NCBI RefSeq assembly: GCF_000013665.1
Contig: NC_007912.1
Location: 2,590,501 to 2,654,500 of the forward strand
DNA: 64,000 bases
Direction: 5' to 3'
DNA from: Saccharophagus degradans 2-40
GTDB taxonomy: Bacteria; Pseudomonadota; Gammaproteobacteria; Pseudomonadales; Cellvibrionaceae
Below the pieces are notes generated by a model. It searched no databases, had not been told where the DNA came from, and was given only the letters and a program-made list of their open reading frames with translations. Both the position numbers and the translations under genes were made by a program. Below, in pieces: positions 51,457-52,693 of the stretch. Each line of letters opens with the position of its first letter. The first letter of the stretch is position 1.

Positions 51457-52551
51457 CTAATTCTTACGGCATGCCACAGGACGATACATATTAGGCAGCG
51501 ATCCTCCCCTACAATCCCAGCTAGCGGAAAAGATTTTACCGTTTCGCGTATTAAACTGGGGCGTTAGCGTAATTGAATGAGACTCTTGGTTTGCTGTAAA
51601 CGGGTTAAATAAAAGCTCAATTTCACCGCCCTCAACTACTTTAATGCTATTTAAGTGCGGACTAGTCGCCTTTAGGTTTATTCCTGCATCTAAGTTGCTA
51701 TTTGGAACAAAATTAGATGAAACGGCAGTCTCTTCGACAGCCACTTGCCACGCGCGAGCTTCCGCCAAACTACCAGCTACTTTTGCTCGAATTGTGTAAT
51801 CTTGATAAGCAGGTAAAGCAATCGCAGCTAAAATACCTACAACCGCAATAATGGGGATTATGGCAATAAGCGCAATAACCAAACCGGAACTCGCTGGTTT
51901 ATCACCATACTTTTCATCCCAGCGCTCCTTCGAGCAGGCCCAGAAATAAATCGCTTCCACCAGCGAAATAAAGCTCGATAAGAAGAAAATAAAATAGAAT
52001 GGTATATAAAAAATACCCCACCACTGCCCCAGATAAAAACGGTGCACACCAAATCCACCGAGGAAAAACGCCAGAAAGCCTGCAACAACTTTGCTCCGCC
52101 CAGTACCAGTTGCCATTGTCGCCCCACAATTTATGCAGACTCGCTGCTCAACCGGCATTTGGCTACCGCATTGGCGACAGAAAACTTGTTTACCTACTGG
52201 GGCAGCCGGTGCTTGATAGATATTATCGGCGGTGTCGTGCTTACCTGCTGAATCGCTACTCGCGTGTTTTGATTCACCATTCGCTTGGGGTAGATTGTCC
52301 GCTAGCTCTAATTCCACCACAATAGAATCGTCTACAAGTTCTGCTTGTAAGCCACAATCAACAATAGCCGCTTCTAGTTTTTTTGCCGTAGCTTCGTCTA
52401 CCGCCCTTTTAATTATTGCTCGTTTCTTATTTTGCAGGTTTTGAGCCTGCTCCGGTGTAAGCCTAAATTTCGCTGCTAATAGCGCGGCCGCCTTTGCTAC
52501 CTGCTCCTCTGAGTCCAATACGTTAATGATATATACGTCGTATAAGGCCAT
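51457..52551 (-). CDS. Zinc-ribbon, TM2-domain and type IV pilin-like fusion protein
   Basis: The 364-residue protein joins four parts. Residues 1-75 form a small alpha/beta domain reminiscent of the ribosomal L7/L12 C-terminal fold. Residues 125-142 are a zinc ribbon (CRQCG then CINCG). Residues 152-205 are a TM2 membrane domain (GFLAFFLGGFGVHRFYLGQ). Residues 222-364 look like a pilin (GILAAIALPAYQDYTIRAKV, then a C-terminal disulfide-loop pair CRGGS and ACRKN). The usual prepilin peptidase site and glutamate 5 are absent (IALIA where pilins have FTLIE), so the pilin part is probably a fixed membrane-anchored domain, not a fibre subunit. The gene is monocistronic between two hairpins. Function unknown. 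Confidence 0.88.
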   Translation of the reverse strand: MALYDVYIINVLDSEEQVAKAAALLAAKFRLTPEQAQNLQNKKRAIIKRAVDEATAKKLEAAIVDCGLQAELVDDSIVVELELADNLPQANGESKHASSDSAGKHDTADNIYQAPAAPVGKQVFCRQCGSQMPVEQRVCINCGATMATGTGRSKVVAGFLAFFLGGFGVHRFYLGQWWGIFYIPFYFIFFLSSFISLVEAIYFWACSKERWDEKYGDKPASSGLVIALIAIIPIIAVVGILAAIALPAYQDYTIRAKVAGSLAEARAWQVAVEETAVSSNFVPNSNLDAGINLKATSPHLNSIKVVEGGEIELLFNPFTANQESHSITLTPQFNTRNGKIFSASWDCRGGSLPNMYRPVACRKN

Positions 52552-52664
52552 ATGTTCGTTCCCTTTGTATCCCTTGCGTTATTATTAGATTCGTAAGCAT
52601 CTAAATACACTATGCAAACTTTCGCGTCAAAAAAAACTTTGGGTTACCTTTATTTGTCAGGCAG

Positions 52665-52693
52665 AAAAAAGCCCTCGCGTGGAGGGCTTTTTG
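52665..52693 (-). terminator. Intrinsic terminator downstream of amtB
   Basis: GCCCTC (52671-52676) and GAGGGC (52682-52687) form a 6-bp stem with a GCGTG loop, flanked by A-runs and T-runs (AAAAAA/TTTTT), so it can work in both directions. It lies 43 nt beyond the amtB stop on the minus strand. Confidence 0.88.

Follow-up and report, generated by a model that had tools for sequence, protein, structure and literature searches.

A zinc-ribbon and TM2 membrane protein of Saccharophagus degradans that ends in a type IV pilin domain lacking processing features

What might a type IV pilin domain be doing at the end of a protein that already has a TM2 membrane hairpin and that lacks the marks of pilin processing? 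The question is raised by a gene at 51457-52551 on the minus strand of the window, by which we mean the whole 64,000-nucleotide stretch of Saccharophagus degradans 2-40 DNA that was analysed. From an ATG start the gene encodes 364 residues, made up of a bL12-CTD/ClpS-like domain, a disordered linker, a zinc ribbon, a TM2 domain and a pilin domain that appears to stay uncleaved; all parts described below lie on the same minus strand.

Architecture of the fused protein

The fusion architecture is well supported. A Pfam scan of the 364-residue protein finds TM2 (PF05154) at residues 151-198 (4.8e-13; 49.5 bits, above the curated cut-off of 27.9), Pilin (PF00114) at residues 255-362 (5e-10) and, slightly under its cut-off, Zn_Ribbon_1 (PF13240) at residues 124-144 (5.8e-5). 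The ribbon (residues 123-144; 52120-52185) has four cysteines, C125, C128, C139 and C142, in a CxxC...CxxC arrangement that is invariant in 10 aligned relatives. An earlier sequence-only reading, according to which one protein joins zinc-ribbon, TM2 and type IV pilin-like domains, is thus borne out by Pfam and by the invariant cysteines. The TM2 hairpin (residues 151-198; 51958-52101) has its hydrophobic peak at 180-198, and Pfam, the AlphaFold model and hydrophobicity together predict three transmembrane segments in the protein. The AlphaFold model (mean pLDDT 82, with a pTM of 0.41 that makes the placement of the domains unreliable) consists of four parts, namely a b-a-a-b-a-b domain at residues 1-75, a disordered linker, the ribbon with the TM2 hairpin, and a single helix, residues 224-279, that runs into the pilin head.

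The domain list of the sequence-only reading stands except that it overlooked the N-terminal domain (residues 1-75; 52327-52551), which is modelled with pLDDT > 90 and is predicted to be cytosolic. Over 68-73 residues VIA-align matches its fold about equally to the C-terminal domain of L7/L12 (1ctf, Z 10.5) and to ClpS (9ayn, Z 10.7). PF00542 gives no match to the window protein itself in the Pfam scan; it does match the N-terminal domain of one relative, L037 (9.7e-7; 29.5 bits, cut-off 25.9), and more weakly that of others, so that the sequence evidence leans to L12. The low-confidence linker that follows (residues 80-119, pLDDT < 50; 52195-52314) contains the motif NIYQAPAAP at residues 110-118, which recurs in relatives. 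A motif of the form [N/S]PYxxPxA is also seen in N-terminal tails, predicted to be cytosolic, of otherwise unrelated membrane proteins, including TM2, DUF805 and DUF2628 proteins and a small membrane protein (window 52198-52224, minus strand, residues 110-118; also L004, L016, L019, L148 and L173), and may be the ligand of a shared adaptor.

The C-terminal part is indeed pilin-like. In addition to the PF00114 match, residues 226-364 align with the Neisseria pilins 1ay2 and 4v1j at Z 12.8-13.0 (VIA-align), and the C-terminal cysteine pair, C347/C361, is invariant in the aligned relatives. In pilin numbering, where G14 is residue 239 and P22 is residue 247, three segments can be told apart: positions 1-13 (residues 226-238; 51838-51876), which are hydrophobic and diverged; positions 14-30, GILAAIALPAYQDYTIR (residues 239-255; 51787-51837), which are conserved; and the remainder of the helix with the globular head and its cysteine pair (residues 256-362; 51466-51786), predicted to be periplasmic.

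What the pilin part has lost is equally clear, and agrees with the earlier statement that the prepilin cleavage site and Glu5 are missing. The window protein has Val at position -1 and Ala at position 5, and neither Gly-1 nor Glu5 occurs in any of 26 aligned fused relatives; free pilins recovered by the genome scan all have Glu5, and Gly at -1 in every case except one with Ala. The N_methyl signature (PF07963) matches two free pilins of this genome but neither the window protein nor any fused protein scanned. There is no short leader ending in Gly or Ala at -1, as in a class III signal peptide, in the window protein; TM2 lies upstream instead. From these sequence features cleavage of the fused protein by prepilin peptidase is unlikely, and the view that the pilin head is tethered to a membrane module in a way that makes normal processing impossible draws support from conservation across the family.

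Relatives, other partners and selection on the helix

The same fusion recurs in other genomes, so widely that chance cannot account for it. Among 144 genomes from the same family, some 20-25 encode fused relatives with intact frames, mostly at 32-49% identity; beyond the family the fusion occurs in Ketobacter, Solimicrobium, Aliiglaciecola, Motilimonas and others, across gamma- and betaproteobacteria; a search for plasmid copies found none. The architecture varies somewhat. Seven proteins (L008, L010, L012, L013, L017, L018 and L030) have an additional PsbP-like domain C-terminal to the pilin head, one of them (L030) has lost the ribbon and TM2 and retains the N-terminal and pilin domains, and two (L022 and L023) have the pilin helix only and no head. 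In one Pseudomonadales MAG (L036:6424-8744) the fusion gene is tandemly duplicated beside a cation/proton antiporter-like gene.

Moreover, TM2 is not the only partner. Pilin domains without Glu5 also follow GYF_2 (L046, L100) and DUF2628, with or without a ribbon (L173, L174), and form the C-terminus of HtpX-like M48 peptidases (L125, L175, L178). Within the family, 15 of 17 DUF805 proteins, one of them from this genome, end in a segment resembling pilin positions 14-30 without any head; among these DUF805 proteins (L004/L186 and L187-L202), some have a long acidic tail after that segment. In most of these fusions, to judge by domain order, a cytosolic module and a membrane segment ahead of the pilin helix would put the head outside. 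Fusions of a further kind (L167-L170), about 730 residues long, consist of a lipoprotein-like domain of ~600 residues followed by a C-terminal pilin domain; in the one that was scanned (L170) Pfam finds no match upstream of the pilin part. Their hydrophobic stretch is weaker (peak 1.7-1.8 vs about 3) and how they sit in the membrane is a puzzle, their N-terminal part being expected on the outside; one topology may not fit all fusions. DUF4845/PA0769, a twitching effector (PMC9427106), was considered as a further relative and set aside, the copy in this genome bearing no clear resemblance to a pilin.

How did these domains arise? A tree of 98 pilin domains, built from the small number of 129 columns, sets 39 of 43 fused domains apart from all free pilins on a branch with support 94/95 and places the remaining four among free pilins. 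On the same 129 columns the data are compatible with a single origin of the fused domains (p-AU 0.30) and with a single TM2 clade (p-AU 0.107). Since a single origin is not rejected, the pilin module either arose once and then moved from partner to partner or was taken up on several occasions.

The strongest pattern is in the helix itself. With redundancy removed, mean pairwise identity among TM2 fusions is 23% over positions 1-13, 78% over positions 14-30 and 27% over the head, against 20%, 78% and 24% among the other fusions and 96%, 88% and 31% among free pilins, the values over positions 14-22 being inflated for some rows because the genome scan beyond the family and the extraction pattern used part of the 14-30 motif. 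The search of the 144 family genomes did not use the motif, and one member that it returned (L029) lacks it; moreover, positions 24, 27 and 30 are near-invariant though they lie outside the extraction pattern. Within 14-30, Y24, D26, Y27 and R30 are nearly as conserved in fused proteins as in free pilins. Where two fused proteins share an amino acid they use the same codon at a rate of 0.37 in 14-30 and 0.39 in 1-13. The codons are thus as scrambled in the conserved segment as in the diverged one, which means that 14-30 is held by selection on the protein rather than by recent copying from pilin genes; recent recombination with pilA is ruled out as the source of its conservation by the same codon divergence.

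The Gly14-Pro22 region (residues 15-23) is non-helical in the assembled pilus (PMC5059446; PMC10191384), and the residues that break the helix there are believed to aid a step of pilus assembly (PMC5059446). That 14-30 is constrained to a similar degree in proteins that presumably do not assemble, while 1-13 has drifted, amounts to a natural experiment separating two functions of the pilin helix. The alignments suggest that this 17-residue stretch serves some purpose other than pilus building, and a role of positions 14-30 independent of assembly becomes directly testable.

Possible roles of the pilin part

Ordinary pilins lose their leader by cleavage at Gly-1, and the Glu5 of a subunit forms a pair with the Phe1 amine of its upper neighbour (PMC5059446; PMC10191384). 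What we infer of the topology, the partner and the pilus role of the fused protein is the following. The cytosolic bL12-CTD/ClpS-like domain and zinc ribbon would come first, followed by the TM2 hairpin and then by pilin alpha-1 as a third membrane segment, inserted N-in like a prepilin, so that the head would lie in the periplasm. The upstream membrane domain would replace the leader, and there would be no PilD-type cut, no free Phe1 amine and no docking through Glu5. Lacking the cut and the charge pair, and held by two more membrane segments, the protein should stay in the inner membrane. There, alpha-1 positions 14-30 could be a contact surface for pilins or another shared intramembrane partner, and the cytosolic bL12/ClpS-like domain and ribbon could be the output or recruiting side, coupled to this intramembrane contact. 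Two precedents are available: TfpY has three transmembrane helices and a periplasmic C-terminus and likely contacts pilins while remaining outside the filament (PMC11841053), and PilS contacts PilA via transmembrane segments (PMC6058289). Given these precedents and the retention of 14-30, we propose that the fused protein is a type IVa pilin relative locked in the inner membrane, an accessory or adaptor whose segment 14-30 touches pilins or some other partner within the membrane, a proposal that we hold tentatively, at slightly short of an even chance. It could possibly be a sensor or regulator of pilus assembly, as had also been suggested from the sequence; its connection with type IV pili is putative.

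The most serious alternative, plausible though in our judgment somewhat improbable, is that the pilin part is an exapted envelope domain without a pilus role, the head serving in the periplasm as a stable domain for binding or structure and 14-30 being retained because it kinks the helix or matters for insertion or topology. The diversity of partners that have nothing to do with pili (TM2, DUF805, DUF2628, M48, GYF_2), the wide divergence of the head and the lack of pilus genes next door would all fit such a history. However, a generic membrane helix needs no exact sequence, and here 14-30, including Y24, D26, Y27 and R30, is conserved nearly to the level of free pilins while 1-13 is not; DUF805 tails without any head retain it too. 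Far less probable is that the pilin part acts as a plug, as the sequence-only reading had considered, or as a terminator, docking at the filament base or at a PilC-bound subunit and so blocking or anchoring the pilus. A membrane-locked anchor with the filament-core segment 14-30 retained would permit lateral packing, but a subunit that docks beneath another does so through its Glu5 and the Phe1 amine of the upper one (PMC5059446), Glu5 is missing throughout the family, and with both partners of the salt bridge absent a plug becomes less likely. We give still less credence to processing of an unusual kind, in which an internal cut, for example after Gly223, would free the pilin part to join the pilus as a minor subunit. 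Minor pilins without Glu5 are known at pilus tips (PMC10191384), and Gly223 does precede a hydrophobic stretch (SSG-LVIAL) on the predicted cytosolic side; but it is two residues out of register, it is absent from the closest relative (L007) and unconserved in general, and there is no N_methyl signature. Finally, a neutral or recent gene fusion and a strain-specific misassembly, the latter named by the sequence-only reading as a refuting condition, have nothing in their favour and are excluded by recurrence, the frame and the motif being conserved across many genomes whose heads have diverged to 27% identity.

How does the membrane-locked relative that we favour compare with known systems? With the type IVa major pilins (PF00114; PilA, PilE) it shares the pilin fold (Z about 13), alpha-1 positions 14-30 and the C-terminal cysteine pair, but it lacks the class III signal peptide, Gly-1 and Glu5, and cytosolic and membrane domains precede its pilin part. 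Modular pilins such as PilB and PilC of S. sanguinis are likewise pilins fused to other domains; there, however, the graft sits on a processed and assembled pilin, whereas here the modules lie upstream, replace the leader and leave no site in register. Tip minor pilins of the GspK/PilK type also lack Glu5, but they keep a leader and are cleaved, and the fused proteins have neither leader nor cleavage site. TM2 and zinc-ribbon membrane proteins (PF05154, PF13240) have the same ribbon and hairpin, to which the fusion adds the C-terminal pilin helix and head and the N-terminal bL12-CTD/ClpS-like domain. The likeness to TfpY/FimB would lie in architecture: three transmembrane helices, a periplasmic C-terminal domain and a place outside the filament, all of them predicted features in the fusion, whereas TfpY heads have not been described as pilin domains and the fusion gene stands alone. 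GltJ of Myxococcus, a motility protein, is a cytosolic adaptor with a zinc ribbon and a GYF domain, and the GYF_2 part of one fusion (L046) resembles it at 1.1e-8, far under the cut-off of the GltJ model; unlike that fusion, GltJ has no pilin domain that we know of.

Our literature search, which covered mostly open-access papers, found no description of this architecture and no paper joining a pilin with TM2 or GYF domains; one paper mentions DUF805 together with pilins, outside its main text. More generally, we consider it possible, at somewhat less than an even chance, that these proteins form a large class, so far undescribed, of pilin derivatives that are tethered to the membrane and do not assemble. 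In this class 14-30 would be a mobile module for docking within the membrane, with a function apart from filament assembly, and would connect pilins, or some other common partner, with varied cytosolic effectors: bL12/ClpS-like, zinc-ribbon, GYF_2 and M48 peptidase modules.

Gene neighbourhood

In the window the gene is flanked by an ammonium transporter gene upstream and a histidine-phosphatase gene of the phosphoglycerate-mutase type downstream. Pilus genes adjoin the fusion gene in none of about 25 neighbourhoods inspected, which rules out an operon with them at these loci. PilQ is encoded in 20 of 20 fusion genomes tested, and with base rates of 122 of 151 in the class and 144 of 144 in the family this co-occurrence has little power as proof of a pilus link. 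In one genus the fusion gene lies ~10 kb from pilQ, a proximity that is probably incidental. The only recurrent same-strand neighbours, both seen in one genus, are a protein that we take by eye to be DUF1993-like (C1) and a small membrane protein (C11). Between the ammonium transporter gene and the fusion gene, at window positions 52664-52692, there is a GC-rich hairpin with runs of A and T, absent from the pattern-scan output, that looks terminator-like by eye.
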